Shown piece after piece: positions 26,131-63,934 of a stretch of DNA of 64,000 nucleotides; the first letter of the stretch is position 1, and the number at the start of each line of letters is the position of its first letter. A program made the position numbers and the translations under genes. The notes under the pieces are model-generated. The model was given only the letters and a program-made list of their open reading frames with translations. It ran no database searches and was not told the origin of the DNA. Origin of the DNA: Morinoia aosen (Eukaryota > Arthropoda > Malacostraca > Amphipoda > Talitridae); contig CM059574.1 in NCBI GenBank assembly GCA_030386875.1, positions 2,487,934-2,551,933 on the forward strand, given 5' to 3'.

Positions 26131-26400
26131 CCCAGTCTAACCTTTTCGCCGGAGCATGCATGCTTATCGCCGTCCAAGCGATTTTATCGCCGAAGAGGCG
26201 GCTATTCTACTTATCGATTCATATCGCCGCTCAATGTATGCAATTTTATACAATATTTTGCATAAAAATGCAAAGAAAATTATGTGTTCCACCGGTCAAG
26301 CGATTTTATCGCCGAAGAGGCGGCTATTCTACTTATCGATTCATATCGCCGCTCAATGTATAAATTTGTAAGCAACATTTTGCATAAAAATGCATATAAA
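26131..26400. repeat. Left subterminal repeats of element 1
   Basis: A direct duplication of about 120 bp (26160-26270 and 26285-26395) carries CAAGCGATTTTATCGCCGAA, then AGGCGGCTATTCTACTTATC, then CATATCGCCGCTCAATGTAT. It is followed by TTGCATAAAAATGCA. These are probable transposase or accessory-protein binding sites, by analogy with CACTA elements. Confidence 0.75.
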
Positions 26401-28566: not shown

Positions 28567-29717
28567 TAGGTAAATGTTGAGGACTTGACCATAATTGATT
28601 TTCGAATTTTCGATGCCCAAATAATGCTAATCAGATCAAAAGAAACAAGTTTTCTTCAATGCACTTTCCGGTGGAAACGAGTATTTTAAAAGTTATAGCG
28701 GTAAATGAGTTAACGGAACTCCAGTGTTTTAGGCGGGAATAAATGAATAAGGGAAGCATCACCCTATTACAAACGTAAAGAGGTTGGGTCGAGAGGGGTA
28801 GCCACAGTTCTTTTAGTGAAAATTGGAAATGAATTGAAATTCTACTATACATAAACATAATTAATGAGATGACGAGTTATATTGTCGATGCGAAAGACTT
28901 AACTCGAAAGTTCCCAGATACGTCGAACCGACGATATACCGTCATCTCAGGGCTGCCAGTGACGTCGAAGCAGCGGTAAACACTTTATAAGCAGCGGTAA
29001 ACACTTTATTATAAACGTAAAGAGGTTGGGTCGTGAGGAGTAGCCACAGTTCTTTTAGTGAGAATTATCAATAAAGTGAAATTCTAGTATGCATTAGTAT
29101 AAAAACTGAGATGACGAGTTCATTTGTCGATCCGAACGAATTCATTCGAATGCTCTCAGATACGTCGAACGTTCGACGTACATTTGTCGATCCGAACGAA
29201 TTCATTCGAATGCTCTCAGATACGTCGAACGTTCGACGTACATTTGTCGATCCGAACGAATTCATTCGAATGCTCTCAGATACGTCGAACGTTCGACGTA
29301 CATTTGTCGATCCGAACGAATTCATTCGAATGCTCTCAGATACGTCGAACGTTCGACGTAGTGGGTCGGTTAAAACCTTTCTTAATAATTTTCATTAAAA
29401 GAACTGTTGCCAGCCCTCACGACCCAACCTCTTAACGTTTGTAATAGGGGGTTTGCTTCTCTTCTTTATTTTTTCTAGCGAAGTCGGCTTGGTTGGCGCG
29501 CGGCAACGCCTGTTTACTTTCACGTCGGACCGCGCGGTATATTTTTCCCCGCCTGAAACACTGGAGTTACGTTACCTCATTTACCGCTATAACTTTTAAA
29601 ATACTCGTTTCCACCGGAAAGTGCATTGAAGAAAACTTGTTTATTTCCATGTCATTCACATTATTACGGCATTGAAAATTCGAAAATCAATTATGGTCAA
29701 GTCCTCAACATTTACCC
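28567..29717. mobile_element. 1.15-kb fold-back element with a repeat core
   Basis: Arms of roughly 290-330 bp (from GGTAAATGTTGAGGACTTGA on the left to its complement ending at 29717) share CCGGTGGAAACGAGTATTTT and GGTTGGGTCG-type blocks. The centre carries the 60-bp tandem array at 29121-29360 and a diverged single version near 28870-28950. It lies inside element 1. Confidence 0.85.
29121..29360. repeat. Four perfect 60-bp tandem units with palindromes
   Basis: Units 29121-29180, 29181-29240, 29241-29300 and 29301-29360 are identical. Each contains the perfect palindrome GTCGAACGTTCGAC and the imperfect palindrome CGAACGAATTCATTCG. The period is divisible by three, so several frames on both strands are open. 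I regard these frames as accidental. Confidence 0.97.
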
Positions 29718-30913
29718 TTTCTTAAAAAATTTATGTTTTGTTAGTAAATCTTTTTAAACTATCATTGTAAAATCTTTGAAATATTTGAAAAAAGTCAAGG
29801 CCCTATCTGAAAACTCAAACAATGGGTGAATAAGGTTCTCAATTGAGGGACAATAATCTTGCTATTTAATTGATAATACATTGTGTTAAAAAATAATTGT
29901 AAAAAACAATGACTGAGGATCATATCAATGAAATATTTTAGATTTTTATAATTTTAATTGATATGTAATAAGTCTTGATTTGTTGATCATTTTTAATAGT
30001 GCTTGAGTGCAAATTTTATGTACAGGCTCACAATACAATTCTTTTTCTGTCAAATAATGGCAATTATTTTCTACAGAAGCTGCCACTTATTGCATATCAA
30101 AATGTTTCCCAATTAAATTAATATCCATATTGTGAATATTCATTTCTTTGTGAGAAATATGCATGTTAAGTACTTACATGGTTAAGCCGTACATGTTAAG
30201 CCGTGTGTAGAATCTTTTCATGATGTGATATGTGTAAAAATTGTTCTAAGTGCAAGAGATCTTAATTAAAAGAGCTGATTGTATTGTTAGCTACAAAGTA
30301 ACATATTTCTCTCATATTATTGCATCATATTTGTATGATTTTTTGTTGAAAAAGTAGGGGTATTTGTGAAGGAGAGGACAACAAACAATTTTTCAATTTT
30401 TGGTGTTTGATTATTGGTTATTAGATTGATAAAACAATTTTTCTTCTATGCATATTCTGTCATGGCTTCATAGCCAGAAGAAGAAAAATTCTTATTGCTG
30501 TTTTGCTGCTTCAAATGTCAAACCTGCCACACTGAGTCCTTTCATTGCATGAACTTTGGAAAAAAAGCCTGATGAACATTCTTTATATTTGAAAACACAA
30601 CATCTGTGTCAACCTGTGCCATGATCTATGTTGCAGATTAAACCAAGCGCAGTGATGTCTTTGATTAAAAAGAAATTTTCTATGCTTACATTTAGTGATA
30701 AATAAAATAGGGTGGTGCCATCAAGCTGGCTAATATAATAAAAGAATTTTTTTGCAACTGGCCTTCAAAAAATTTAGAGTTGAAGATAAGAGACTGTGTA
30801 GCATCATCAGCACACTGGAGAACTTATGTGGCCACAAACATCATAGCAACTTCAAGTAAGTGTAAAGTTACTTTGTCGCTAAATATTATTTGGTAAATAA
30901 TCTAGCTTTTACT

Positions 30914-31300
30914 CCTCAGGGGATGAAACTATTGTATTTATGGGAAGTAGTTCCCCCTGTGGCAGAATATAAGGGCTAGAGCTGATGGTTTGGTATCCCT
31001 TCTTGTTGTTGAAATGTATATTTTTTGTTTTGTTAAAGACTAATTTTTGTCTCACTGCTATCATTTTTTTCAGTGCTTACTAGTTTCTCCTTGAACTGTT
31101 ATCTTGTTTGAACTTTCTTCCTCTGTTTGTATGTACGGAGAAAGCTATGAGGGAAAACACTGGTGCATAGATTCCCCGTTAACGTGTTCATGTGTCTATA
31201 CCTGATGGCCCATTTTGGCATTTTCTATGCCTCTCTTGGGAACACCTTTGTTGTGGGGTTATGTAGGCTTTAACTAAATAGTAATAATGATATTGATCTA
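30914..31300 (+). mobile_element. SINE-like repeat copy 5
   Basis: Diverged full-length member (CTCAGGGGATGAAACTATTG at the 5' end, GTTATGTAGGCTTTAACTAAA near the tail), lying in the first intron of DUF4806 copy A. Confidence 0.7.
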
Positions 31301-33649
31301 GTTCATGATCTTTTCTCATAAATATATGTCATTTAAATCATCATTATATAAGTTGTGCAATATTGATGATTAGCAGCAGTGTTTCAAATATATATATTTT
31401 TTTGTTTAGTGAAGAATTTTCCATCTCTATCATGTGTTAGACATCCTGTAATTAGTAACAACACTTAAATATGTATAGATTGGTAGTTTGCTTCGAATTT
31501 TTGTTTCCACAGATACTGTTTTCTAATAGAGCAACTGTTCTGAGATATAGGTATATTCTACATATAAGATTGGATACAAAATAATGTTTGTACATGTATA
31601 CTAATTAGCATTAGCACCTTGGCCCATGAGAATAAATTTTAATTTGTTTGCTCTACTCTGTGTCACTTTGTGCTCTTCATCAATTGACGAAACAATATTT
31701 AATACTCTTTATCAATATTTAGTCTTTCTATTCATCTGTAAGCTTGTAGCAGGAGGAGTTTTGCTGTTCATCTTCACTTAACTTTTTCATTTATTATAGT
31801 GTATAGCTGAATTTCTGTTTTAGTTTTGCTACGTTTTTTTCTCATACATTATGCTCTCACAACCTTCTAGATTCACAAGCCAGATGTGGGGAAAAAGGAT
31901 ACCTATGAGCATACCCTTCTTCAGCCACCAAAGATGATTCTGCCCGCAGCACCATCTAAACACAGCTTCCATCGTTTCAAGTTTCATCACTGGTGCAAAG
32001 TTGCAATCCTCCCAGTTAATCACGGTGAGATATCTTCTATCAAGTACGATACCATTATCCTGACTTTCCTCATTCACGTTAACATTGAATTGGATGCTAA
32101 CTTTCTAATTATCATAACCTTTCTTCAATCTTCATGACATTGGAAGGCTGAATTTGTATCATAACTACTTCTCTGGTATTGACATTGAATAATTATGTAT
32201 TCCACTTGTTTAACAATAATCACTTTGGAATGCAGGGCAGTTAGATATATCATACTGTAGTTGACAAAGTTTTGTTATCTACAGGAATGAATGCACTTCC
32301 ACTGAAGTGATAGGCAAGCGACACAAAGTGGCAAGTAATGTCAACGATCTACAAACTGGGCTGAAGCGCATCAGCAATCAACAATAAAGATTTGCAGATA
32401 TACTGTCAGAGAAATTTAAGAAGTTGAAGCATTGGTCGAGGTGAAAAAGCCCCAACCTTCAAGCAACGAGCCCTTACCTGGACCATCCAAGACAGTGGAA
32501 GAACTGGACGTTCTTTTGAAGCAACTTGAACTAGTGAGTTAAATAGAATGATTTTTATTTCTTACATAGATGATGCTGTTCTTAAGTCCCTGCAATAATT
32601 ATTTATGTGCAGGTAACTATTTTTTATATAAAGGTTAGATCGAAGCAGTAATAATGAATAATTTTTGTTTATTTTTTATAGTTTGGATGAGTTACAGTGT
32701 GAGAATATCCATTTCTTAGAATGAATGGAGCATTGTAAACATCATAAGAAATATCTAAGATAAATTGTTCATGGAAGTTTTTACTAAATTATTACCTTCA
32801 AGAAATGGTTTCTTATGTAAGCGCGAAAAACAGAGGCATTTCACATGAAGGCCCATAACCTTGCAAAACATTGCAACAAATTTGAGAACAGGAAATATTA
32901 AGCTTCAATAGGAAATGTACCAATATTGAATTAAACAAATACACCAATGATGCATTCAGGTAGTCATTTTCTTAATTTGTCTATGGTCACGAGACTATTG
33001 TACAAGTCACGGTAAGTGTGAATATGAAGCTTGTGCTAAAACCTAGGTAAAATATGAATCTAATGAAAAATATTGTTTTTTTGCAGCCGGTAGCTCTCAA
33101 AAGGCCATGTGGGAGTAAGCGTTTCAGAGTCCAGAGACGTATATTGAAGCGCCTGTTCACCAGAGAACTGGTGATGCAGTTCAGCTTCTCAGGACTTGGT
33201 GGTCATCGGAGGCAGCAGTCAAAAATTGCCTTCAAGGACCACAATGCAATGCACATTATTCATGGTAAGCAGTTATTACTGAGAAATGTTTTTACCCTCC
33301 CTGATAATTTTGTTTTTATATATATTACTAACCTATTCAAATAAAGCTTTGCAAGATAAAAAAAATTGAACCAGTGCATCAGGAGTAGGTGGTTCTTTTT
33401 AATTTTGATCTATTTTCCTTTTCCTTGTTGATCATCTTGTGAAATCAGCTGTGAAAGCCATAAATTCTGTGTAGCACCTAAAGAACTGAAACTTGAAGAT
33501 TGGCATTCCTTTATCCTTCACGTATTGTTCAACTAGAGCACCTAGATGTATCTTTTTCTGCTATTGCTACACTTACTTTTGAATGCGAAGCCAGTCACTC
33601 ACAGATTATGCATTTTTCTGCTGAATTATACTCAAACAAGGATAAAATA

Positions 33650-33999
33650 ATTGTACCTATAAGAAGAAGCATTCCCAGAATGAAAATTTAAGGCCCAAGC
33701 TAAAAATTTGGCTCTTACAGGTTGAAATAGTGTGTTTTTTATTTTGTTTACGACAGCTAATCATTTATTCAGTTTACTGCTATCCTTGTCTTCAGCAACT
33801 ACTTGTTTCATCGTGAATTTCTATAGTGTTTGAACTTCCTGACTTTTGCTGTTTCTATGCGCATTCAGTATATGCTGAGTGGGAACGCACTTTGGCTTAG
33901 GTTCTTCATGTGTGCGTGTCCATTCTTGATGGTCCTTTCATTATTCCTCTATTTGGAACACCGTTTTCGTAGTTTAGGAAGCTTAAACTAACTCATAAT
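33650..33999 (+). mobile_element. SINE-like repeat copy 6 (diverged)
   Basis: Recognisable by GCATTCCCAGAATGAAAATTTAAGGCCC-type 5' sequence and AGGAAGCTTAAACTAACTCA with an AATCT tail. In intron 4 of DUF4806 copy A. Confidence 0.6.
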
Positions 34000-34083
34000 C
34001 TAATATCTGTTATATTATCTGTAATGTCACAATTGCGATAGAACATGAATACACTTGCCATTCGAAATAGTGATCATTGATCA

Positions 34084-34396
34084 CTCCCCGGGGGATTATG
34101 TGAGGGCCCGAGCTAAAGGTTAGGTAGGCTTTCTTTTTGTTCAAATAGAATAGGTTTTTGTTTTCTCACGGACCATCATTTTTTTCGGTTCATTGCTGTC
34201 TTGTTTTTCAGCACCTACTACTTCTTCAACTTATTCTTGTTTCATGATCTTTCTTTGCTTACTGTTTCTATGCATATTTGCATATATTCCGCGTTCCCTC
34301 AACTCCATACTAAATGGTGTCTTCATCCTTCCTCTCTTGGAACATCTTTGTCGTGGTAAAGAGAGGCTAAAACTTTCTTACGTAATAATAGTAAAG
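34084..34396 (+). mobile_element. SINE-like repeat copy 7 (5' truncated)
   Basis: Starts at CCCCGGGGGATTATGTGAGG and keeps AGCACCTACTACTTCTTCAAC and AGAGAGGCTAAAACT. It lies immediately after copy 6 in the same orientation. Confidence 0.7.
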
Positions 34397-34852
34397 TGAT
34401 CATTGATATGAACATTAGTAAATCATTCTTTAGTTTACAACTCGTATGTAATTTATGTTTTCTCACTATTGTATTGGTACAACTTTATCCATCACGGAAC
34501 TAAGTTGCTCTCGTATTTTGTAGAAGTGTTGGCAGCCGGTGGGTTCACTAACCACAAAGTTATCGCAGTCGCCACGCAACGAGGTCTGCGTGGATCGGTG
34601 GACTGGGATGGAAGTAGACATCACCGTGGAACAGGTGCTACAGAGGCTGCAGGAATAGCAACCACCACCAATTTCAGCACCATCACCACAACCGAATCAA
34701 CTGACCCTGTCCCATCACCGAGCATCACTGATACAGCCGAGCTCGTGCCTTCGTCGAATCTAATTGTGGAATCAGACAGTGAATAAGTGTCAAGTCTTGC
34801 GTTTAGACCAATGGATGTGGCTTAAATTCCGACATTCTGGGTAGGTTTGTCT

Positions 34853-35222
34853 CCTCAGAGTGATACTATTGTATATATGGGATGTAGCACTCCCAGAGAG
34901 GCAATGTGAGTGCCCAAGCTAAAGTTTAAGTAGGACTTCTTTTTGTTTAAATAATGTATTTTTTGTTCTGTCAAGGATCTTTTTTTTCGGTTTACTGCAA
35001 TCCTTTACATCAGCTCCTACTACTTTCTTCTTGAACTTTTGTATTGTTTGAACTTCCTTCCGGACATGCTGTTTCTATGGTCAGGGAATCTTGTGTGGGA
35101 ACACACTAGTGCATAGATTCCAGGTTTACGTGTCCATGCCAGATGGTCCCTTCATTATTTGTCTCGTAGAAACACCATTGTTGGGGCTAGGGAGGCTTAA
35201 ACTAACTGAAAATCTAATCTGC
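34853..35222 (+). mobile_element. SINE-like repeat copy 8
   Basis: CTCCTCAGAGTGATACTATTG at the 5' end and AGGGAGGCTTAAACTAACTG with an AATCTAATCT tail. It begins about 65 bp after the stop of DUF4806 copy A. Confidence 0.75.
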
Positions 35223-35339
35223 TTATGTTTGTTTCTCATTTTAAGATTTTTTCGATTACATAAATCCAAGTATTTATCATTAGCAACTGAGTTTTGCTTA
35301 TGCGGTAAAATTCTCGTGTAGAGTAGTAAGTGTTTTTCA

Positions 35340-36060
35340 ACGATCCTGTTTTTTCAGAAGGAGAATGTATCAGAACTAGAAGGATAGGCCTTCTTTTTGT
35401 TACATAGGAAGTCTATTATTTTGTTACGCCGTATTTTTTTGGTTCCGTTATTTCTTCAGTAGCGTTTAATATTTTATTGAACATTTTTCTTGTTTTAGGA
35501 ATTGCTTTCCTATTTTTCTTAGCACCGGGTGTCCTGTGCGAAACTAGACTTTGGGCATAAAATCCCCGTATTATTTTTATATTAAATGGTCCCTGGAATA
35601 TTTCTCTTGTGGGGACTCTTGCTGTGATCAGTAAAACTCATACTATGATAAATATTCAATAATGGAAATTATTCAAATAATTTTGTCCTAGGGGGACAAA
35701 ATAAGCGCCCGAACTAATGGTGTATAGCCTCCTTTTTGTTGAAATAGTATACGTTTATTTTGTCAAGGTCCAACTTTTTTAACACGTTAACTGCGATGGG
35801 TTAAACTGAAGTTCAATATTGAATTTAAATTAAAAGTAAATTGAGGAAATCAACTTTAAAAACAGCAAACATTAATTGGATCGGGCTTTTATTTAGCTTT
35901 CATTAAGTATTTATAAAAAATGAGTTAGTGACTGCAGGTGGGTCAGCAGCACTATGAAAATCACCTACGTGACCACCGGTGGGTCACTTCGCAGGAAATG
36001 TGTTAAGTTCACTACTATCTTTTACCTCAGCAGTCAGCACCTACTAATTTCTTCTGGAGT
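35340..36060 (+). mobile_element. SINE-like repeat copies 9 and 10 (diverged)
   Basis: Two degraded same-strand matches. The first, about 35340-35640, keeps GGCCTTCTTTTTGTTACATAG and ATTAAATGGTCCC. The second, about 35690-36060, keeps GGGGGACAAAATAAG and CCTCCTTTTTGTTGAAATAG. Insertions interrupt the second. Confidence 0.5.
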
Positions 36061-36229
36061 TCTTGAAATATCCTGTGATTTTTTTTACCCGAACTCTGTG
36101 ATACTATTTTTATTTTTCGGTGAAAACTTGTTGATTTCAGCTTGTAATGGATGGCCATATATAAAATCTGTGATGATGTTGATTTATTTGAACCTCATGA
36201 ATTTCAATAGTCTATTAATAATGTATAAT

Positions 36230-36644
36230 TGTGCTATATTATCGCCGCCTTTCGCTTTATTATGCTTATTTATCTATTCGAGGCAGCGATAACTCCTATT
36301 GGAAAGAAATGCTTAATAATAGCAGAAAATACTCGTGGTACGCACGGATTTTAATAATGGCGCTCAGAAATAAAAGTATTTACGTCTGTGTACCGTGCTA
36401 TGAAAATGCATATTGTTTACAATATTATGCATACTTATGCATTTTATCAGCTTTCTGTCATGCAACTTTATGCACAATTATGCTTTCGAGGCGGCGATAA
36501 TTATCGCGGCAAAAGAGGTCTTTGGCGACGATAAAGTCGGCTATATATCGCCGCCTTGGTGACGATAATCATGCATAAATAAGCATACGACTCGGCGAAC
36601 CGTGTGCATACTTTTCGAAGAGGCGGCGAAAAAGTTAGACTGGG
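36230..36644. repeat. Right subterminal repeats of element 1
   Basis: Repeats of TATCGCCGCCT/AGGCGGCGATA, GAGGCGGCGATAATTATCGC and TATGCAT-type sequence up to the terminal GACTGGG. The TCGCCGCC motif matches that at the left end, so both termini share the same putative binding sites. Confidence 0.75.
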
Positions 36645-49753: not shown

Positions 49754-50000
49754 CCCAGTCGGAAATAATGGTTGTGATTTTAGTAGAATATAGTGGTGTA
49801 TAAGAGATTAAAGTCGATTATGGACGATGAAACAATATGGTAGATATATCGACCATAACTTAATGTTGATTTTAGTATATTTCGGTCGATATTGGTAGAG
49901 GTAATATTGGTTGGTTATGGTTTGTAAACATATCGTAGATTTTAGTTTATTCAGGTCGATATTGGTTGGAGGCAACAATGGTTGATTAAGGTTTGCTATT
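49754..50000. repeat. Left subterminal repeats of element 2
   Basis: Repeated GTCGATTATGG, ATATCGACCATAA, AGGTCGATATTGG and TGGTTG motifs in both orientations within 250 bp of the terminus. 50000-51106, up to the transposase start, has no recognisable feature and should hold the promoter. Confidence 0.7.
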
Positions 50001-51106
50001 ACATGGATGTTTCAAGACTACATATGGCACAGTATAGATAAATATAGCCTTAACTTTGCTCCGTAAATTAAGTACTTAAAAAACAGCTGTTCATGATAAA
50101 TTATGAATTTTGTCGTCTTCATGTTTGCAAAATGTTTTGTTTCTTCATTTAGCACCTATATAAGCTAAAAATATTTGGAATTACGCAATGTATTTCTATT
50201 TCCTTTAGTTATGCATATACGGTATTGTTGATTCAAGTTGTTTCCTCACATAGTGTATCAATTAAATATTCTATGAGTGATGGTCAAATGACTCTTAGAA
50301 AAAACGTACTGTGACGTTACTGTTTATATGTTGAAGTTACCTGGAAAGCAATACTTTAATAATAAAATGACATTTAAGACAGTCCAGTCTATTTTCATTC
50401 CTTCGTTACGAATCACTTTTGAAATTTGCCTACATACTTTAGGATGAAACACTGTTTTCCCATCCAGAGAATGATTACTGTAATGAAATGTGCCATAAAA
50501 ATTGAAAAGTTATGTGACGCGTTCAAAATTTGTTACCCGAACGCAGCGTTTCATACGTGTTCCATAGAGAGAAATAACAAGGTACACCCATGGTGTAATA
50601 CTTGTTCGGTCGTTGTACCTAACTCCAGAAGTTGATTCCAATTTTTACAGTAACTTTTTTTGCAGCGACATTTGACACTCTTGTACTGCAAAGGTTTTCC
50701 TTGTACCTTCACACTTACAAGACGTTAAAATGCGAATCAAACCAATATAACAGTTTTACTGCGTTCGTATGCAACGTAGCTTATGTTTGTACGAACTACG
50801 CAAAGTATAAAGTGTGTCCGAAAAACTAATTTTTTTCACTGTATTACTTCTACGCAGCGTATAAAAAATTACATGAGAGTTACAAGAGTCTATAGCAAAA
50901 CAATGATTCGGAACACAGAGAATTAATTCATAGAAAAAATAACTTCTACTCTAATGTGATTCATTTCCTTGTATTTTCATTAGAATACTTGAATCTTACC
51001 TCTGGCAGCTCACTTAGGCAAAAGTTGACGGTTAGTTAAGACTCAACAGCCGGCGTGTCTGCATCTGTGCACTGAACTGTTGTTTCAATTGATCGTTTGA
51101 TCCAAT

Positions 51107-53260
51107 ATGGGTAGAAAAAAGAACTTCGAGGATTTGTCTCAAAGGCAGAAGCGACGCCGTATAAAAATATCTATGTTAGAGACTAGTAGAGTGCCTACTA
51201 TCTGCGAAACTACTAGTAGTAATCTTTTTGCTAGTAGGAGTGATGCCAACTTTAGAAGTGACCTTAAGCTGCATGCAAGTGCAGAACAAAATATACAGCC
51301 AACTACTGAAACTTATCAGAAAGAAAGTGATATAGGAAGTGTATCTCCGCTTGAAATGATGGATCACAGTGACTCATCAATACAAACTAGTAGAGCTGAG
51401 AGTGCTGCATCTGAAATACAGGATTTATGTGAAAATTTTTATGTGAAAAGCGCTGATGTACCAACTACCACATGCACCATCGACTGCGGAAATTTTCTGC
51501 GATCAAAATTTGAAAATTGGATAAATGAAGAAAAACAAGTTCCTCACGCAGCTGTAGATAGATTATTAAATATGTTGGCTCCAAGGTACCCGGGCTTACC
51601 AACTTCAGTGAAATCATTGTGCCAAAAAGGTGATGAATTTAATATAAAAGACATGGGTAATGGTGAATATTCTTATTTTGAATGCTGGCGGTTTCAATTA
51701 GAAGAATATATTTTGCAAAATTATACGGATGAGAAGCAACAAAATATATTGCACGTCAAAATTAATGTAGATGGGTTGCCTCTTACTAATGCTTCAATTA
51801 GGTATAATGCTTATCCAATTCTTTTACAAGTACTGGAAATTCCCAAACATATATTCGGTGCAGCAATATATTGCACCAACAAGGTATGTTCTAATCACAT
51901 GCCGCCAACAAGAGAGTTCTTAGAACCATTTTTGAATGATTTTGCCTTACTGCAACAATCAATGGGGAATAAGGGGTTCACTGTGAAGCTGGGACCTTTT
52001 GTGTGTGATGCTCCAATAAGAGCAGCTCTAAAAGAAATTGTTAGTCATAGCGGTTATTCAAGCTGTGAGCGCTGCACTCAACGCGGTCAGTATCATGATT
52101 GCACTGTTGTCTACCCTGAACTGGACTTCGATGAAAGAACAGATGAAAGTTTTGCAAGACGATTAGATAATAATCATCATAAGGCATTGTTAAAATCTCC
52201 ATTAGAACAATTTGGATGCAATATGGTTAGTGACTTTGTCATTGATTACATGCACTGTTGTCTACTTGGGACTATGAAAAGATTCTTGAGCAGACTCAAG
52301 AGCAGCAGAGCCAATCAAAAGAAAATGCATATGAGTTCACAAGCCAAATTAAAGTTCAATGAAAAGCTACTTCAATGTTCCGTGTATTTGCCAGATGATT
52401 TCTCAAGAAAATTAGAAGGGGGAATTGAAAAAATGGTGCATTGGAAAGCAACAGAATTTCGAACATTTCTTTTATATTGTGGAATACTTGTTTTACGCAG
52501 CTCCAAAATTGTGAGTAAGGAGGTGTAAAATAGTTTCTTACATTTTTCTCTGGCCATGAAATTACTTTTACTTGATGATCAACAAAAAAATGTTGACGTG
52601 ATTAAAAATCTTCTCCATGCATTTATTCAGAAAACAACAAGTTTATTTGGGAGAGGTTTTATCAGTTATAATGTTCATGCCATGATTCATCTTCCACAAG
52701 ATTATATTAGATTTGGCAAACTCGAAAATATATCTACCTTTCCGTTTGAAACATACTTAGGCACTCACATAAAAGGTGCTGTAAGGTCTGGTTTTAAACC
52801 CCTGAGTCAAATCTCCAAACATGTTGCTCATACTAACTTCAACTGGAAACAACAGACTGAAAAGGAATGTGTAAACTGTTGCAAAATATCCAACAAAGAG
52901 TGCCGTGGGAAAACTCAAAATGAAAAGTGCTACAAAAAGTTGAAAATTAAAAACAATTTGTGCCTGAAAATAAAATCTCACTCGGAAAGAAACAGTTGTG
53001 TACAATTGGCAGATGGTCGAATTGGATTTGTCATTGAAATCCACAAACTTGAAAATAATATAACATTACTGTTTACTCATTTTCTACACAAACTTGATTT
53101 TTTCACTGACCCTTTCCCTTCATCAAAAATTGGAATTTTCAAACTAACTAATTTAATTAATGATGCAACTTGGATATCTTTAGATGATATTGCATCAAAA
53201 ATGGAAATTTTTCCTTATAAAAATGATTTTCTTGCACAGGTTCTCATACACAGCACTTGA
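51107..53260 (+). pseudogene. Tnp2-like DDE transposase (one internal stop)
   Basis: Starts MGRKKNFEDLSQRQKRRR, a basic start common in arthropod members of this family. A 473-codon frame ends at TAA (52526-52528). The same frame then continues uninterrupted to 53260, so the whole is 717 codons with a single nonsense codon at 474. Candidate catalytic residues are D301 in FVCDAP, D380 in VIDYMH and E548 in FPFETYLG. A C-x2-C pair (C320, C323 in SSCERCTQRG) follows the first Asp. The text around them matches Transposase_21/tnp2-type transposases of CACTA (EnSpm) elements and their animal relatives. The product would cut and paste element 2 via its termini in the nucleus. The stop suggests recent inactivation or, less likely, readthrough. 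Assigning D/D/E is inference by family pattern. Confidence 0.85.
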
Positions 53261-53309
53261 GCAAAACTGTTCACTTAAGTATATTTAGTTCCTAGCTATA
53301 AGTACAGTC

Positions 53310-56300
53310 ATGAACATAGACAAGAAAAATGTAAAAAAATTCTGTGGCATACAGTTTTCTGACAATAGTCATGAAGTCGTGCCTCGAGAGTGGCTCAAGA
53401 AAAAAATGACGAAGTGTCTCTGGCCAAAAAATAATGATGTTCAAGAAGTAAGACTGCGCGCACCTCGAGGACTTGCAGCAGATGACAGCTGGGAACTTAT
53501 CCCAATTAAACTACTGACACATTCAAGTAAGTTGTGTTTAATAACTTTTTTGCACATTCATAGACCTGAGTGATTTTTATATTTATGGAGTGCCAATTTC
53601 AAAATTATACCACTGACGATATGCATAATGTAACTATCCCATGGGTTATGAGTAAAGTTCTAGAAAACATGTTTTTCATGTTTTTGGTTTCTATTCTAAT
53701 GAAAAATGTTTTTTATTCGTTTTTGTTTGTTTTTCATCAGTTTTTGTTGTTTTTACTTGTTTTTTCATTGGGGTTTATCTAGTGATGCAAAAAAACGGTT
53801 TTATTTGATTGCGTTTTTAAAAAAAAAAACGTATTTTTTATGTTTTTTTTTGTTTTTTTTTTGTTTTTTTTTGCTCACCTAAATTTTGTTAAGTATATGT
53901 CTGTTTTTTTTTTTGGGCACCTAAAATATATCAATATCCATGTTTTTTAGTCATTTTATTGTTATAAAAACATCAAAAAGAAAGCATACAGTAAAAGTGG
54001 TGGCAGATAACCCACAATTACCTAGAGGCGTCTAAGAGGAACAGCAGGAGCCACAGAACTTATATTGATGCAGTCAAAATTCAAAGCTTACTATCTCTAC
54101 TAAGTCTGATTTTATTTTTATGTGACCAAAAAAATCAGACATAGCAGAGATATATGCAGGCAGAGATATATGCAGGCAGAGATATATGCAGGCAGAGATA
54201 TATGCAGAGATAACAATGGAGAACTGCGACATTTACTGGTACGATGTTGTACAGGTAGGGATGCGGACCAAATGCGCGGGCCCTAAAGAGCTCACCGCTT
54301 ATCAGACCTCTGAGCACAGGGGTAGGGAGGCATGCTCGCTCGCACAGATAATAAGCTCTGAATTTTGACTCCATCAATATAAGTTCTGTGGCTCCTGCTG
54401 TACCTCTTAGACTCCTCTAGGTAATTGTGGGTTATCTGCCACCACTTTTACTGTATGGTTTCTTTTTTATGTTTTCATTACAAAAAAATGACTAAAAACC
54501 ATAGATATTAATATATTTTAGTTTTTTTAAAAACATGTTTTTTTTACAAAAAATTCTGACTAATAAAAATGATTGTTAATATATTTTCTGGTACCAAATA
54601 TAACCATGCTGTTTTTTTTACAAAGAATCATAACTAAAAAACAATATAATTTATGTGACCTAAAAAGCCCAATGCAGTTTTAAAAAAACATGTTTTTTAC
54701 TAAAAAATCCTGACTGAAAAAAACATGAATATATTTATGAGACCAAAAAAATGTTTTTGTCCCAAAAAATCATGACTAAAAAACATGAATATAATTATGA
54801 GACCTAAAATGGTGTTTTTTAAAAATTGTTTTTTTACAAACAATGATGTATAAGAAAACCTGGATATGAATATATTTTATGCGACCAAAAAACCATGCTG
54901 TTTTAATTTATGCATTTTTCATAAAAAAATTCTTAAAATCATGGATATTAACATATTTTATGTTGCTAAAAAAATCATTGTTTTATTTTAAACATGTTTT
55001 TTCATTAAAAAGTTATGATTCATTTTTTGGTCACGACTTTTTTGTAAAAAAAAACACCCCCTCAGGGGGATACAACTATTGTATCTATGGGAACTAGCGC
55101 TCCCAGGAGGACAATGTGAGGGCCCAAGCTGAGAGTTAGGTAGGCCTCCTTTTTGTTAAAATGAAATGCTTTTGTTATGTTGAGGACCACCTTTTTTCGA
55201 TTCACTGCTGTCCTGTTTTTCAGCACCTAATACTGTCTTCTTCAACTTTGATCTTGTTTCATAATCTTCCTTCCTCTCTTTGGATCGCATTTGTTGCTGG
55301 GCAGGGAGGCTTAAACTAATGACTAATCTAATCTGTAAAAAAAACATGGATATTAATTTATTTTAGGTGACCAAAAAAACCATGCTTTTTGAAAAAATAT
55401 TTTATTACAAAAAACAGGAGTGTTATTAAATTTAATCTGACCAAAAAAACATGACATTTTAAAAACCATGTTTTTTTCACAAAAAGTCGTTAATATCCAT
55501 GTTTTTATGTCATGATTTTTTGGTAAAGAAAACATGATTTAAAAAAAACCAGCATGGTTTTTTTGGCACATAAAATATATTGATATCCACATTTTTTTAT
55601 CATGATTTTTCTGTAAAAAGATGTTTAAAAAAACAGCATGGTTGTTTATGGTAAAATAAAGTATATTAATACCCGTGTTTTTAAGTCATGACTTTTTTGT
55701 AACAAAAACATTCAAAAAATAGCATGGATTTTTTGGTCACATAAGATATATTAATATCCATTAGAATCATACCAGGTCTTAGAATACGAGTAAAATATCC
55801 AAAAAGAATCTATTCACTCTATAAAACCTTTCGGAGACTAGCTCCATCCTCAGTAAGTCATTCAGTCAAATGTTTTTCAAAGGAACAGTGAAAATTCATT
55901 GTCCATTTCACCAAATTTTACTGAATGACTGAGGATGGAGCTGGTCTCCAAAAGGTTTTATGGAGTAAATAGATTCTTTGTAGATACTTTATTCTATGAC
56001 CTAGTAAAGTTCTAATAAACCTGACTTCAATATTAACAGCATTCTTTGTTTATAAGTTTCTAAAGACAATTCGATTAAAGAAAAATAACTTTCCTGATAT
56101 TTACATCCGTGTTTTTTTTAGTCATGATTTTTTTAAATGTTTAAAAAAAAACAATTTTTTGGTCCCATGAAATATAATAGCCATGTTTTTTTAGTCAAGA
56201 TTTTTTGGTTAAAAAACAATGTTTTAAAAAAAACAGCATTGGATTTTTAAGGTCACATAAATATATTATTATCCATGTTTTTTATTCATAATTTTTGTAT

Positions 56301-59300
56301 AAACATGTTTTTTTTTAAACAGCATGGTTTTTTAGTCACATCCCTATCAATGACCATAAGTAAAGATATGTTATTATAACACACCATTTTGGGACTTGAA
56401 GGTCATTCACATGTATTGTAAAATAAATGAAATATCAAAGCATGAAACCTCAGAAAATGAAAAATTTCATAAAACCATGGAAAACCACCAATTAAGAAGT
56501 ATGTTGTTTTATTTTATAATCTGACATGAAAACACATAATGTAATGTGGTTCTTTTTCTTGCCGAGTTATTTTAAGACAAAATATTAAAAAAAAACAAAA
56601 TATGCACATTTTTCTGGCCACGGTTTTTTTTGTAAAACATACGTGTTTTTTAAAAAAAAAACGGCATGGTTTTTTTTAGTCACATCTCTAGGTTTATCAA
56701 ATAAATTAATTACTGTGCATAATTCTGAACGTATAAACAAATATCAACTAATGTATTATTATTGAAATACCTCAGTGATATTATTTATTATCAATGAAAG
56801 AAAGAAAAAGGCAAGAAAAAAGGAAAGAAAAAAGGTTTGTAGGTAAACTACAGGACACAGTTGCAAGGACTTTGACAAAACTTTGCAATTGGCCCTTGAG
56901 GCGACTCAAGTCATTCACATAAAAACCTGTAGGGGCCCCAAGATTCTAAACTTACCAATCATCTTGCCCATAAACCTCTCAAAATTTCAACTATTGTTCA
57001 TAATCTTGTCAGAATATTGTTGTGTCAGAAGGTGAGCGGCAACTGGGACAGGCCGTCAGGTCTATCAGGAGCAGGCTCTTCAAACGCTTCGAGTATTTAG
57101 TACACACATTTGTGTTTATCAGAGAAAATTTAACTGTCGTTTTATTTCACAGAAACGTTTGCTGGATGTGAGAAGAAGCTGTATGCAGCTTCAGAAACTG
57201 ACGGATACACCAGCACAGACTGCGCTTCATCTACAGAGGACATTCGCAGTAGAATACGTGCACCGTCGCCGCTTCTTCCTCGCTGCAATGCCATGCCGTC
57301 TGAAAAGAGGTAACAGCTAGCTACCTATATATTTTGCATGGATTACATCAATGTACATTAGTTGCATTTCTATCTGCATAATCATTGGTAATCATGCTTG
57401 AAATTATTAGGGGTCCCCGCTATGTATGAACCATTTAGATTTTGCCTGATTTTTTAGGTTCTTCTGTTTGGGCTTGGCTGTTTTTTATTGTCTGTTTATC
57501 CGTCTGTCAAATGTAACGCTCTTTTTTATTAATTCACTCCACAGTTGTACTCTGGTCTCATCGACAGTTGTTTTAATCGATGTGTCTTGACATTCCCGAC
57601 AGGGTGGTTGTAGCTGATTTTTCTGTCCATAATTTTGATTTAGCTCCATCAAAAATGATATCAATTCATTATGCCTCATCTTGGCTGTTTGAAAAAATTT
57701 TCAAATTTGAGTTAGCCCTATTCTCACCCCCAAAAATTTAAATTCCCCAGTTTTGCTATGATTTTGCCGTAAGTGGTATAAATCAATTTATCCTGTCAAT
57801 TTCTAAAAATGAATGGTGACAATTTATGAATTTGACCATCCCTTACTCTTAAATTTTGAATGGGAACTCATCTTCCTACCCATCCATAATTAAAAAAATA
57901 ATTTTGCGTTCATCTACTTTGTAATTTTATTCCTATTTCATCAATAAAGATCAGTACTGATTTCTCTTGCTATTCCAAATATGGAAACTGTAGTTGCAAT
58001 TTGAATTTTGGATTTATATTGACATGTCACCATTTTTGCTCACCATTCTAACTTCGAACTATTCCAGTTCCACGTGAAATGAAACCCATCTGCAGTTTCA
58101 GTTGACTGCGGGTCTAGTTATCCCGTGTTTCAACAAAAATACAAATGCTATACGTGACTTCTAATGCCGATATGTTTGAGCAGGTGTAAAAAGGCTCTTG
58201 ATGGCCAGGAATTATCAGTTGAGTTGTCACAACTGAAACAAGTTCAGGAAGAAAATTCTAAGAAATTGGACAAGATTCTTTTCATACTTCATCAGGACAA
58301 ATTGTCCCAAGCAGCTGCGAAGGAGCACTTATCACGTAGCACAGGGCTACCTCCACCAGCTGAGACTCTAGATCAACTGGACGTCCTACTTCAGACTCCA
58401 ACACTCGTAAGTTAATTGATATGAAAAACAGTTCCTAAGGTATGAGATATGATCATACCACAATTTACTCTTAAATCACTTCCAGATCTGTATTGTGCGC
58501 GGTGAACTCGAAACATTTTTCTTCTGTGCAGGGTGTCTACTAGGTAGTAAAGTAGTATAAAGTAGTAAAAAGTAGTAAAATTTAGAAAGTAGTAAAAAGT
58601 AGTAAAATTTAGGAAGTAGTAAAAACTAGTAAAATTTACCTCAGGGTAGTAAAAAAATTGTTAAGTGGAATAATTCTCTGAAATTTTAAAGTAATGTTAC
58701 AAATTTATATAGCGTATAAAGATTTTTTTTTACTTTATTTTTCCCAAAATCAGAAATTTGCCTTGATTTGGGGGAAACATTCCTGTACAGGTGGGGTGTA
58801 ATTTTAGGATTGGAGCACACAAAATAGAAAAAAATTTCAAAATTTTTGCGAACACTAAAAACAGTTCATTTTTTCTTCTCATTTCGTCTGAACTGAAAGT
58901 TATCTAGTTGTTTTATGATGGAAGTTTCATTTGAGCCATTTTATCATTAACATATTATTGAGAGAAAACAATAAAACGGCTCTCGCCTTGATGCGGTAAC
59001 CGAGGTTTCATAAATCGTATAAAAATAAATTTAAAACATGTAATACCAGTGGCGATGCATTGTTGAAAACACTTGTATTACTGCGCACTTTCATTGAGAT
59101 AAAAGCTTAGGAACATGAGATAGCAGGGACTAGTACTGAAATTCAATAAGGATTTAAAAATTGTGCATTTATGATTATGAGGTCGACATTTAACATCTTT
59201 TATTTTTACGTATCAAATATGCATTATGCGATCTCAAGGAAAAATGAAATAGCATAGCTACATATTTTCTTGTGGAAGCATATCAAGTGGCTTTGATTTA

Positions 59301-61251
59301 AATATGTTTGTCAAGTAAAATAATTCATATTTTCTGTTACAAATTACAATGCTTTTAAATGTAAAACATCTTGTGAACTTTTTCTTTTAAATTTTATGAA
59401 TAAACATTACAACTAGCCAAAATATTCAAATAGGTAGGTGCACTTATCACTAAATAACTATTACATTTTATTGAATTTTATCGTTAGTGGATGCAGTTGC
59501 CCGTAAGATATATAGCATAGTTGGTATAATTGTTCTTTTTGTGCAGTTGATACTCAAAACTTAAAGTATTTTATTCCCAAAAGAACAGAATTAAAATTAT
59601 TTTCAATTAGCGTTCCCCTCAGGGGGATGCAACTATTTTTTCTATGGGAATTGGCGCTCCCAGGGGAACAATGTGAGGGCCCGAGCTGCGAGTTGGGTGG
59701 GCCTCCTTTCTGTTGAAATAAAATGTTTTTTGTTAGGTTAAGACCCACCATTTTCGGTTCACTACTGTCCTGGTTTTCAGCACCTCCGACTTTCTTCTTC
59801 AACTTTCATCATATTTCATGAACTTCTTTCTCATCTTACTGTTTCTGTGCCCTTTCTGCATAGATTCCACGTTCCCTTTACTCCATACTAAATGGTGCCT
59901 TCTTCCTTCCTCTCTTTGGATCGCATTTGTTGCTGCGGGTAGGGAGGCTAAAACTAACGACTAATCTAATCTAATCTTTTTTGAACCTTTGGTATTGCGT
60001 ATATTATTGATTCAAATTACTCATGATAGGCCGATTACTTACATCTGGACATTTGGACAACATTCATTGTGTAAAAAAAGGTAGTAATTTTTTTGCCGTT
60101 GCAGGTAGTAAAAAGTTGTAACATTTGAAAATGAAATATCAATTGTCACCTTGCTGTGCATTGATTGACAGATCAAATAGATCAGTGTATTTAATTGTTT
60201 TTGATAAAGTTTCATAATGTACTACTTTGCTTCATGTCATTTAAACAACATGACACATCACAATAAATTTCATTATTTTAATCTTTATACCACTCTCTGT
60301 TACTTGGTATCATTCAGAATAGAAATTTAGTCTTTCACATACAGTCAATGTAGTAATGTCATTCATTTATGATAACATGTAGTGCCGTGAATTTTAGTTT
60401 GAATTTTCTGTCTTTCTGAATGTTTTTAATTTCCTTATGAACTATCTTCACTATTTACTGCTACATCAAGTAATATTTTAATGGATAACTTTTCAGATGT
60501 AAATATTTTAGAAACCAATTCAATCATGTTTTTTATTTTCAGCTTGATGCTCTGAAGGAACTTCAAGGCAGGTCATCCAGTGACACAGTTCGCCGCATTA
60601 TTCGAAGGCTTCTGTCAAAAAAACTGGCGCTATCCTTCAGCTGGACAGGACTGGGACCTTCCAGAAAGCCTACAAAAATCAGCTTCAGAGATCATCAAGC
60701 TGGGAAATTATGTTATGGTATGACCATAGGTCATTCATGTCATCTTCTAAATGTTTTAATTTTGAAAAATTTGCAGTGAAACTGACCTAAATGTCCCTTA
60801 ATTCCTTCAATATTGTATTTAAGACTTTCTACGATACCAATTTTTTGAGCATGAAAAGCAAAATAAAATTTCATTACCTCCCATTTCAAAAAGAGCTAGA
60901 GGAGATTTTATCTGATAATGTAAATTTTACCATTGCTTCAAAACCATTCCCCAAAGGGACTTGAGCTTTCAAATTTTTTGCGAGGTCTTCAGGAATGCCA
61001 GGTTCCTGGGTTCTCCGACAGGGCCCAGTACAGCGAGCCTTGCAGTATAGGTGTTAACTTGCAGCTGGATTGTTCTCTTTCAGTTGGGTAGGCTTTTTAA
61101 GTTTTCTCCACTGTGTCACGTACATTACATCTTTGAATTGTAGCTTCTTTACAAGCCCCTGGCTTAGGATACGTTTCTATCTTGGTTCCGTTTAGATAAT
61201 TAGGCCTATGCCTTGCTCCTTCAAGAACCCAACTTTATTATTATTATTATA

Positions 61252-61309
<58 letters not shown>

Positions 61310-62109
61310 TCTCAGTTTGAGCCTCCCTAACCAAATCAAGAGAAGGAATAATGAAGACCATCTAGTATGTAAAAGTAGAAGGGGATTCTATCCACGAGAT
61401 GTGCCTCGCACAGAACATCCTTGAATGTCAACATGTATGTGTTACCAAACAGGATACCAAGCGCATAGAAATAGCCAGTTAAGAAGGAAGTTCAAACTAG
61501 AAAAAAGTTCAAGAAGAAAGTAGTCAGGGCTGAATGAAATATAGCAATGATTTTTATGTTCATTTAGACAGTCCGAAGTCTTATAAAATCTCAATTTTAA
61601 TTTCAACAGATGCCTGGAAATTCTGCTACCCTCCTCTGGCTTTCAAGGACTTCAGCGCTACAGTGGCGACAGTTCTGAAATCGGTTCCCGATTGGGATGG
61701 TGGCCGCTCACGCTCCGCTGCATTGGCTTGCATAACGTGAGTTTTGATGTTCTCAACTAGAATAGAAAATATCGTGACTACTAATCGACTTTAAAACGTC
61801 AAAAGGAAAGTAAAACTAGATTTTACCATTTATCAAAATGAGACGTAACGTATGTAAGTTTTTTCTAGTGATGGTAAAGCTCACAAAATTTTAGGATTCT
61901 AAATCGCAACCTTTTTTAGTGCAGGAAATGTGCAGAACGCAGCAGAAGCATCAGCTGGGCCTTCAACTGACACTATGATGAGCTGCGCACAGAACGCAGC
62001 AGAAGCTTCAGCTGGGCCTTCAACTGACACTATGATGAGCTGCGCGCAGAACGCAGCAGAAGCATCAGCTGGACCTTCAACTGAACCCTTCAACAAGCTG
62101 CCCGTCTGA
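53310..62109 (+). CDS. DUF4806 protein, six exons, intact (copy B)
   Basis: Exons 53310-53526, 57153-57309, 58184-58406, 60543-60717, 61610-61736 and 61920-62109 all have GT..AG introns and sum to 1089 nt, a complete 362-aa frame. Exon 1 has IQFSDNSHEVVPREWL and KCLWPKNN, the N-terminal Trp-containing module that usually precedes DUF4806. Exon 3 is a probable coiled coil (LSQLKQVQEENSKKLDKILF). Exon 4 is the DUF4806 core (TVRRIIRRLLSKKLALSFSW). Exon 6 has three 19-residue repeats (CAQNAAEASAGPSTDTMMS). The start codon is 49 bp after the transposase stop, with an acceptor-like AGTACAG just before it, so transcripts may be shared. AATAAA lies at 62183. The biochemical role of DUF4806 is unknown. 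A DNA-binding accessory role is inference. Confidence 0.8.
53960..54480. mobile_element. Fold-back element
   Basis: Arms of about 130 bp share ACAGTAAAAGTGGTGGCAGA and GATAACCCACAATTACCTAG with their complements at 54410-54470. The centre carries a 16-bp tandem repeat. Confidence 0.8.
54143..54206. repeat. 16-bp tandem repeat
   Basis: Four perfect units of GCAGAGATATATGCAG, within the fold-back 53960-54480. Confidence 0.95.
55059..55333 (+). mobile_element. SINE-like repeat copy 14 (with TSD)
   Basis: From CCCTCAGGGGGATACAACTA to ATGACTAATCTAATC, flanked by TGTAAAAAAAACA-type direct repeats. About 80 bp of the middle is deleted relative to copy 12. It lies in intron 1 of the DUF4806 gene. 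Confidence 0.85.
55795..55995. mobile_element. Short fold-back element
   Basis: Arms of about 65 bp (AAAGAATCTATTCACTCTAT through CTCAGTAAGTCATTCAGT, and the complement ending ATAGATTCTTT) around an 85-bp loop. Confidence 0.85.
57420..58125. repeat. Direct repeat within element 2, first copy
   Basis: The clearest part is 57985-58125: CTGTAGTTGCAATTTGAAT, then CTATTCCAGTTCCAC and CCCATCTGCAGTTTCAGTTG. It recurs at 62355-62500 in the same orientation. Both are non-coding (intron 2 and the 3' flank of the DUF4806 gene). Confidence 0.65.
58530..60130. repeat. AGTAGTAAAA repeat element split by a SINE
   Basis: At 58530-58660, GCAGGGTGTCTACTAGGTAG is followed by about ten copies of AGTAGTAAAA-type units. 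The same unit reappears at 60080-60125 (GGTAGTAAAAAGTTG). This suggests one element spans the interval, with SINE-like copy 15 inside it. Superfamily not determined. It lies in intron 3 of the DUF4806 gene. Confidence 0.5.
59616..59976 (+). mobile_element. SINE-like repeat copy 15
   Basis: Full length, CCCCTCAGGGGGATGCAACT to CTAACGACTAATCTAATCTAATCT, with three tail units. Confidence 0.85.
61231..61309. repeat. (ATT)n microsatellite
   Basis: About 25 units with one interruption, next to the tail end of SINE-like copy 16. Confidence 0.95.
61313..61530 (-). mobile_element. SINE-like repeat copy 16 (truncated)
   Basis: Minus-orientation member beginning CAGTTTGAGCCTCCCTAACC and running to AAGTAGTCAGGGCTGAATG. 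The 5' half is missing. It lies in intron 4 of the DUF4806 gene. Confidence 0.7.
61927..62095 (+). repeat. 57-bp coding repeat, three copies
   Basis: Three 57-bp units in the last exon of the DUF4806 gene (CAGAACGCAGCAGAAGC within each) give the 19-residue protein repeat. Near-identity of the units suggests recent expansion. Confidence 0.9.
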
Positions 62110-62182
62110 TGATTCTGCAACATCTACAGCTCCCCTCTTCTAATAATTATAAGTGTTCTAGTTTTGCTAACAGGTAAAGAGG

Positions 62183-62188
62183 AATAAA
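62183..62188 (+). promoter_or_regulatory. Polyadenylation signal of DUF4806 gene
   Basis: AATAAA 74 bp after the stop codon at 62107-62109, the first such hexamer downstream. Confidence 0.5.
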
Positions 62189-62189
62189 A

Positions 62190-63400
62190 TGTTTATGTTG
62201 CTTAAGTGATCGTTACATGTATTCTACGAGTTCCTATTCATTATTATGCTAAGAGTTCCTGTTCATTATTATTCATTCATTATTACGGATAACCATCTAG
62301 GTTTCGGCTAATTTCTCCATTTTTGGTTAGATTGGTTTGAAACTCGTTTTTTAGACATGGTGACTGTAGTTGCAATGTGAATTTCGTTTTAAAAATCACG
62401 ATTTTTGTGTTCAAAATTTGAGCCACAAGCTATTCCAGTTTCACTAGAAATTGGACCCATCTGCAGTCCCACTTGACTGCGCGTGTAGTTTTTGCTTTGC
62501 CTGGGACTTTACAAATGCTTTTCCCCGAGTGCATGTTGAAAAGGATTATCTTGTTATGGTTTCCCTCACGTGAGGGTACCATGTAGTAATCGGACATGAC
62601 CCATAAGAAGTGGTCGTAGAGAAGTGGGGTTCAAATTTCTTGGCGTATCTTATGTTATACATTAATTATTTATGTCTTTCCGTCAGTAATCTTATATTTT
62701 CTAATTTCGGCCACAGTTTTGAGTCGATATCGTCGAAAGTAGTCTCATTCGCTTGGTTTCGTCAATGTCAATAAATGAACTGTTGCCGACCTTAGAAGTT
62801 CGAATTAGGGACCCCCTACAGTTACTTTTTGATATATTTTAGATTACTAATTTAGACTTCATTCCTGAGAATTGTCGAATGATATATCAGTAGATTCGTC
62901 TCGACAATAAAGATAAATGCTAAAGTTTTTTTTTTTTGAATTTGAAGTTAAAAAACACTCGCCCCTCTTTTTTTATTTTTTAATTGAATTGTGAGCTCGT
63001 TCATTGGTCACTCAACCGCGTTGTAATTTTTTCATGATAGACAAACTGTTCATGTTACTTGAGTTTTTCTCTGCGGAAAGTATTTTTTACTTTCATAGGT
63101 TTAGTTTGATTTAAATACGATAATAACGTTTCTTTTTGCGATATTAACGATTTGTTATGTTGTGTACTCATACAGTCCAGATCTTACTAATGATCCTCAT
63201 CGGAATGTGCTTAGTTCTTTGTTCGTCACGGTTATTTGCAATTTCTTTGATTATTTCGAAACCTTACTGAGTTTCGCTAAAAAAAAATATTTTTTCTTCA
63301 ACTCGTTCCAGCAAATATATACAATAAATATTGCAATTAAAAAATTTTTCATTGACATTTGTTTTGAGAAGCTCTGAAGATTAGGATATACCACTAAGAA
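62190..63400. other. 3' flank inside element 2
   Basis: Contains the second copy of the internal direct repeat (62355-62500). Otherwise unassigned, with only short open frames, for example 63162-63377. Confidence 0.4.
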
Positions 63401-63887
63401 CAACTATAATCATCTAATGAATCATTAGTTGAATATAGTTGTTTTTAGTGGTGTATGGTAATGTTAACAGTTAAATAAAGTTGATCATGGTAGAATATAG
63501 TTGTATCGTTAGCTGCTAACAATACAACTATATTCCACCATGATCAACTTTATTTAACTGTTAACATTACCGTACACCACTAAAAACAACTATTTTCAGC
63601 TAATAGAACTATACAACTATATTCTACCATAATCACAGTCGATTATGGTTGTGAATGGTGTTTTATACGGTTCACTATGGTTGAACATGGTTGTGGAGCC
63701 AGACCCTGAAAGGTTGATATTGGTTTTTTATGGAAGGGTATTATGGTTGGTCATGGTCGCGAAAAGCGGACATATCCCTACCATAATGCACCCCATAAAT
63801 AGTTGAATATGGAGGATATTTCGATAATAAACAACCGAAGATCTCGACCATAATCATCGTTGCTGCATACCATAATTTCTGACTGGG
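63400..63887. repeat. Right subterminal repeats of element 2
   Basis: Dense ATATAGTTG, ACCATAAT/ATTATGGT and GGTTG motifs up to the terminus. It includes a near-perfect palindrome (63435-63593) with arms of about 73 bp (ATAGTTGTTTTTAGTGGTGT and its complement). The motif TCGACCATAA is shared with the left end. Confidence 0.8.
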
Positions 63888-63934
63888 ATGGTAACTCCGG
63901 TGTTGACCCGAACGAAAGGCTTGAGCATGTCAAT
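63888..63934 (-). pseudogene. DUF4806 relic D, core exon, proximal part
   Basis: After the acceptor ACTTTCAG the minus-strand frame reads IDMLKPFVRVNTGVT and is then cut by element 2 at the AT target. The match to exon 4 of copy B is positional (LDALKELQGRSSSDTV) and starts at the same codon phase. Upstream exons of this gene would lie beyond the right edge of the window. Confidence 0.7.

Follow-up and report, generated by a model that had tools for sequence, protein, structure and literature searches.

Within the CACTA/EnSpm superfamily, the animal elements form the TRC group, whose termini have a CCC core (PMC1636069, 2006). The Aedes aegypti CCCAGTCAAC TRC element spans 9.2 kb, with CCCAGTC ends and 2-bp repeats, and TRC elements carry in tandem a second open reading frame (ORF), which was likened to TnpA already in 2006 (PMC1636069). 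Here we analysed a stretch of 64,000 nucleotides from the amphipod Morinoia aosen (C19:2487934-2551933; hereafter the window, meaning the whole stretch), in which positions 49754-63887 hold a related element that combines a Tnp2-like DDE transposase gene with a gene for a DUF4806-related protein. Two proteins, a transposase and a smaller partner, are likewise encoded by plant En/Spm (TnpD and TnpA), but its ends are CACTA and those of the present element are CCCAGTC. En/Spm carries subterminal repeats near both ends, as does this element, and duplicates 3 bp of its target, compared with 2 bp at this locus.

The described TRC elements (SmTRC1 and that of Aedes) have, like this one, CCC termini, 2-bp duplications, a transposase of the Tnp2/Transposase_21 type (Tnp2-like in the present case) and, following it, exons that encode a second protein; the present unit differs in its length, 14.1 kb versus 9.2 kb in Aedes and 5.2 kb in Tribolium, and in the six-exon frame of its second gene, which has a start codon of its own (PMC1636069). 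Whereas the available text of that paper gives the non-transposase TRC products as not detectably conserved, the second protein of the present element is a DUF4806 relative conserved between families. Spongebob/EnSpm-4N1_HM (Hydra, insects), with CCCAGCC termini and a 2-bp duplication, has also been assigned to TRC; the available account reports no intact transposase and describes no second gene (PMC4298943). The accessible part of a study on Daphnia CACTA elements makes no mention of a second gene (PMC2884549). The features of the element are given below by window position and strand, where family A denotes elements of the window type and family B those at loci L029-L030.

49754..63887, + strand: end-complete copy of the two-gene transposon, 14,134 bp, with 8 further end-complete copies in the genome
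49752..49753, no strand: left target-site duplication AT, from flank comparison
63888..63889, no strand: right target-site duplication AT, from flank comparison
49754..49772, + strand: left terminal inverted repeat, CCCAGTCGGAAATAATGGT, 17/19 match to the right end
63869..63887, - strand: right terminal inverted repeat, conserved in family B
49754..50053, no strand: left subterminal WTGGT cluster, 9 in 300 bp
63588..63887, no strand: right subterminal WTGGT cluster, 12 in 300 bp; about 250 bp align with the family B right end
51107..53260, + strand: gene of 717 codons for a Tnp2/TRC-like DDE transposase, codon 474 being an in-frame stop
52526..52528, + strand: premature TAA, before the conserved H524, H528 and E548
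53310..53526, + strand: DUF4806 gene exon 1, encoding the N-terminal W..WP domain, from family B comparison
57153..57309, + strand: exon 2, from the exon model
58184..58406, + strand: exon 3, linker, no constraint seen
60543..60717, + strand: exon 4, DUF4806 domain core
61610..61736, + strand: exon 5, from the exon model
61920..62109, + strand: exon 6, with a 57-bp unit repeated three times in frame; stop codon 62107-62109

When the genome (1.99 Gb, 29 contigs) was searched in six frames with the first 473 transposase residues, 90 matches were scored among 1511 candidates, and ten near-identical copies, selected for 719-codon transposase frames, were taken with 20 kb each. Eight of the ten contained the two ends and matched every one of the six exons; for the other two (C22:15.96M and C4:26.63M) no right end was found within 20 kb. 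The nine end-complete copies, i.e. these eight and the window copy, were 99.36-99.66% identical in pairwise comparisons, and the 2-bp flanks were equal in seven of them (TA in four, AA, AC and, around the window copy, AT). In these duplications, in inverted repeats starting with CCC and in the DDE RNase H-like core of its transposase, the element agrees with TRC and animal EnSpm elements. Positions 49754-63887 are one copy of a young DNA transposon, a mobile two-gene unit, and the 14.1-kb unit with matched termini and a 2-bp duplication that a first-pass annotation of the window had proposed was thereby upheld. It had also advised looking for empty sites: when the joined flanks of seven copies were compared with the sequences fetched for the analysis, only those of the C7 copy found a counterpart, an uninterrupted related site at L009, gapless at the junction and identical at 200 of 258 bases (78%).

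The ends of the element read CCCAGTCGGAAA...TTTCTGACTGGG, at 49754 and 63887, and match at 17 of their first 19 terminal bases. Subterminal repeats, which the annotation had also claimed, were found as the motif WTGGT, selected after k-mer inspection. Its counts per 300 bp were 9 at the left end of family A, 12 at the right end of A and 15 at the right end of B, compared with shuffle means of 2.2 (A left) and 2.5 (A right) that ranged from 2.2 to 3.1 over the three ends; none of 1000 shuffles reached the observed counts. The transposase frame showed no such enrichment (9 occurrences in 2154 bp, where shuffles average 10.4). An earlier motif, WWTWKGGTH, was enriched at the right end (6 occurrences; 0 of 1000 shuffles). 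As to the terminal heptamer, the window contains nine CCCAGTC sites where 2.65 are expected, one of them (60649-60655) inside exon 4. A short way inside the right end, positions 63424-63604 form a near-perfect hairpin (90-bp arms, 94%, 1 bp loop).

The 717-codon transposase frame listed in the first-pass annotation turned out not to be open in the window copy, being interrupted by a single internal TAA at codon 474. It is open in the ten other fetched copies, which were picked for 719-codon frames, and among the 16 best matches there were 14 frames of 719-723 codons, besides the window copy (475) and one of 621. Since the truncation falls before H524, H528 and E548, the window copy should move only with the help of intact copies. 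Three older copies, 95-96% identical (C9:63664851, C10:32797047 and C21:96334080), have 475-codon frames, as in the window. In a 56-row alignment, D301, C320, C323, H524, H528 and E548 were invariant and D222 was present in at least 90% of the rows. The model predicted for residues 1-473 has an RNase H-like DDE core and resembles RAG1, BbRAGL and HzTransib, with 8-11% identity in the RAG alignments and with different element ends; the predicted fold is thus like that of RAG1/Transib, and the transposase has a probable C2H2 zinc site. E450, a candidate for the catalytic glutamate, was given up in favour of E548, which is invariant in the 56 rows and lies 20 residues after H528, the spacing by which E962 follows H942 in RAG1. 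An accessory gene also adjoins the transposase in ProtoRAG; no RAG2-like gene was present among the frames seen. Pieces of the window transposase gave no match to Transposase_21 (PF02992) at E 1; a precomputed list assigns PF02992 to its homologues P0053 and P0085, and the DUF4218 score stayed under the family threshold for the window piece and for every scanned homologue except P0020.

As annotated, the second gene begins 49 bp past the transposase stop and has six exons; it lies on the same strand, and the exons (217, 157, 223, 175, 127 and 190 bp, with GT-AG borders) join into an open frame of 362 aa. The exon model was drawn up by visual inspection, with family B as a guide; for exon 6, the acceptor at 61920 was preferred because the one at 61925 closes the frame early. 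The encoded protein consists of the N-terminal W..WP domain, a variable linker, which may be a coiled coil, and the DUF4806 domain. A single-sequence search with the spliced protein recovered no relatives among 8000 candidates, and a profile of the A and B proteins found one, an uncharacterised 345-aa protein from a tunicate (P0121; 94% aligned, E 6e-15), which shares with it a similar W..WP start and the core FSWTG.G.R..TK.SFR.H. A three-sequence profile (A2) aligned by hhalign with L073, a protein of family E (see below) that scores 35.1 bits against PF16064 and so lies over the cut-off, with a probability of 94% and an E value of 1.1e-7 over 237 columns. Because of this alignment and the related families we regard the window protein as a DUF4806 homologue, as the annotation had done. 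Its own PF16064 score, 17.4 bits for a cut-off of 25, speaks against that identity; the scores were also low for family B (14.4 bits) and P0121 (17.8 bits). Sequence searches of the PDB gave no usable match, and a piecewise exon alignment tried for modelling was rejected for its poor quality.

DUF4806 has been described in zebrafish as a subtype of BEN, with Pan et al. 2023 cited there (PMC11075544). The domain is called BEN-type DNA-binding in the literature, and both a BEN fold and DNA binding are putative for the protein studied here. The three in-frame 57-bp repeats of exon 6 (61933-62103; 19 aa each) are absent from family B, and the C3 copy has a small indel in them. Intron 1 contains an inverted repeat (53921-54521) with 176-bp arms, 93% complementary, probably a nested foldback/miniature inverted-repeat transposable element (MITE) insertion, and a 223-bp sequence occurs twice within the gene (81% identity), at 55058-55280 in intron 1 and at 59615-59837 in intron 3.

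Family B, with a transposase 64.7% identical to that of A, also contains a six-exon gene, which begins 47 bp past the transposase stop; exons 3, 4 and 5 are equal in length in the two families and the second proteins are 54.8% identical over 321 aligned codons. Nonsynonymous (dN) and synonymous (dS) divergence between A and B was estimated by the Nei-Gojobori method. For the transposase, dN was 0.264 and dS 1.335, and for the second gene 0.348 and 0.994; constraint was uneven among the exons, exon 4 giving a dN of 0.154 and a dS of 0.812. Among the nine A copies, variable sites numbered 7.3 per kb in the second-gene exons (8/1089), 12.1 in the transposase (26/2154) and 25.2 in the second-gene introns plus the gap (193/7669). 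The second gene is part of the element, and the two genes have been conserved and selected jointly between A and B.

Exon 1 was in place behind the transposase in all 54 A and B copies examined, of the 90 scored: 48 of 48 loci, the window included, four further A copies and both B-type copies. The remaining 36 scored transposases, among them a 70%-identical subfamily, stand outside this count, and in the decayed copies within it (L045-L048) the exon 1 match spans 26-43 residues only. Tnp2-like genes regularly lacking a DUF4806 partner, which the first-pass annotation had named as contrary evidence, were thus not seen in A and B. The same neighbourhood was met in more divergent families. In family D, read at one locus out of 51 DUF4218 matches (all under the family cut-off), the transposase C terminus is about 35% identical and an exon-1-like frame follows 4 bp past the stop (E 3e-6). 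At family E (C5:53432495) a single 308-aa frame joins a similar N-terminal domain to DUF4806 (E 1.7e-8), and the Tnp2-like frame that ends about 900 bp upstream of it is 29% identical over 371 aligned positions (E 1e-33). In family F (C26:2052438) what is left of the transposase is a Tnp2-like C-terminal piece of 57 residues (30% identity, E 1e-5 versus family E), with exon 1 of a DUF4806 gene 36 bp after this remnant (E 1e-14 versus E). At the family D junction (L071, 650-670), the transposase ends TACAG/GTGAGAAGATG, and its stop, a donor-like GTGAGA and the second-gene start fall within some 15 bases; this junction might permit alternative splicing of one transcript. As for a possible fusion, the C-terminal residues 683-733 of P0081, a 756-aa Tnp2-like protein, resemble DUF4806 on inspection (blastp E 0.43), but hmmscan gave no Pfam match there and did not support the candidate. 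In the genome, PF16064 was matched above its cut-off in at least 148 places, many of them forming dispersed groups whose members agree in score and frame length, so that there are probably more repeated families bearing DUF4806 than those read; 32 of the 148 places are on contig C21.

The annotation had presented the system as one that it had not met in such a description. This does not hold for the CCC ends, the 2-bp duplications, the second ORF or the comparison with TnpA, all printed in 2006, and it does hold, within the open-licence literature searched, for the identity of the second TRC gene as DUF4806. In that literature, as far as its accessible text goes, papers on DUF4806 made no link to a transposon, and the domain appears as expanded or enriched in Hydra and a beetle. 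No open-licence paper was found to treat EnSpm and a BEN domain together, and among the matches listed, the one paper with BEN domain, CACTA and transposase together names BEN just in its reference list. The kind of transposon is known, and what appears new within the literature searched is the identity of the partner and the fact that it recurs next to Tnp2-like genes in several families of one genome.

Further DUF4806-like stretches occur elsewhere in the window:

26131..36644, + strand: second CCCAGTC-bounded unit, 20/21 first terminal bases match, TT flanks both sides
33093..33341, + strand: DUF4806-core-like coding stretch inside that unit, tblastn E 3.5e-8
30670..30732, + strand: remnant resembling exon 1 and interrupted by an in-frame stop, within the same unit, tblastn E 0.015
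20663-21049, - strand: third DUF4806 stretch, E 5.6e-14 to the family E protein

The ends of the second unit read CCCAGTCTAAC[C/T]TTTTCGCCG, and it is a probable transposase-less relative that has retained DUF4806 exons. Seven CCCAGTC sites are present in the window besides the element ends, of which 26131 and 36644 form the matched pair of this unit and 25816 fits a right end: in the GACTGGG site at 25803-25816, the first 14 bases correspond to the element right end (CCCAGTCAGAAATT), possibly a related end.

Considering these data together, we think it probable that the element is a young TRC/EnSpm cut-and-paste transposon, with a DDE transposase and a DUF4806 partner that binds its ATGGT-bearing ends as TnpA does. 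The transposase would cut at the CCCAGTC ends, and the cut ends would be joined to the target with a 2-bp stagger. The DUF4806 protein would bind the ATGGT repeats that cluster just within each end and bring the two ends together, or present them to the transposase, by analogy with TnpA in En/Spm, both proteins being needed for movement. In this model we infer that the DUF4806 protein binds DNA, that ATGGT is what it recognises, that it contacts the transposase and that movement requires both proteins. Several observations weigh against it. Flanks were unequal in two of the nine end-complete copies, C26 (GT/AC) and C8 (CT/AG); the C7 copy is reduced to 11.2 kb, having lost the end of exon 1 (its final 13-15 bases) together with most of intron 1; and the second gene is damaged in the C6 copy, by a 1-bp deletion in exon 1, and in the fetched C19 copy, where the last base of exon 4 is changed. 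At the left end WWTWKGGTH occurs once, a count reached by 402 of 1000 shuffles and hence no enrichment, and both ends were identified for family A but only the right one for B, whose left end lay outside the fetched DNA. The RAG1 alignments end before the region of its catalytic glutamate, which places E548 beyond the structural comparison. Between A and B, finally, exon 3 (the linker) is unconstrained (dN 0.609, dS 0.575) and exon 6 little constrained (dN 0.508, dS 0.743).

The DUF4806 protein could also act outside the cutting complex, as a promoter repressor or an anti-silencing factor kept by the element to control its expression. We consider this unlikely, yet worth serious attention; it fits the conservation and selection equally well. 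Chromatin and transcription-factor roles have been described for BEN-type proteins (PMC11075544, PMC10080584), and promoter functions are known for TnpA itself (PMC1636069). The WTGGT repeats, however, are found at both ends and not just near the promoter, and the right cluster is present in A as well as in B, which favours end recognition and would still allow regulation. It is improbable that the gene is a captured host DUF4806 gene carried as a passenger with no role in transposition. The expanded DUF4806 families of host gene sets (Hydra, beetle), the distant full-length relative in a tunicate (P0121) and the two window stretches with no transposase match beside them would suit such an origin, but one of those two stretches sits within CCCAGTC ends, the gene keeps its position and exon plan in family B with most exons under purifying selection, and a transposase neighbours it in D, E and F as well; a single recent capture is refuted by the comparison of A with B. 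The idea that a transposase remnant and a resident DUF4806 gene merely lie side by side between chance CCCAGTC matches has next to no chance of being right: the heptamer is short and its excess in the window was noted above, but 14-kb units with the same ends are found at other chromosomal sites, by which chance adjacency of the two genes had already been ruled out.

A wider possibility, which we put forward tentatively and as nearly an even matter, is that DUF4806 is primarily a transposon gene, encoding the accessory DNA-binding protein of TRC/EnSpm elements and paired with the transposase since before the families split. The accessory role suggested by the first-pass annotation is favoured by the place of the gene inside the element and behind a Tnp2-like transposase in families A, B and D-F, and is called into question by the unpaired window stretches. 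In the unit at 26131-36644 no transposase match was found at E 0.05 with the queries used, nor any frame longer than 124 codons, and next to 20663-21049, whose boundary was not sought, no transposase match was found in the window at E 1e-4. Other points count against the wider pairing too. The E and F loci were chosen by their PF16064 match alone, so that two of the 148 places were traced upstream; in D, E and F pairing was judged from the genes alone, at one locus each and with the ends not sought. The gap of some 900 bp between transposase and second gene in E is unfavourable, and the putative transposase of F, with its 57 residues, is the weakest case. Only one of the 148 PF16064 places lies within 30 kb of 74 (of the 90) A/B transposases or of the 51 DUF4218 places, which fits E and F as separate families and means that pairing was sampled, not surveyed.

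If the favoured reading is true, a domain of unknown function acquires a specific role and a target sequence that can be tested, and the animal CACTA branch would be a two-protein system with a defined partner; excision and binding assays are feasible, given near-identical copies with open frames. Counts of DUF4806 in animal gene sets may then be counting transposons. Should DUF4806 be primarily a transposon gene, the Hydra and beetle expansions and the zebrafish cluster would largely be transposon copies, and any DUF4806 (BEN-type) genes that hosts have in single copy would be remnants of such elements after domestication.

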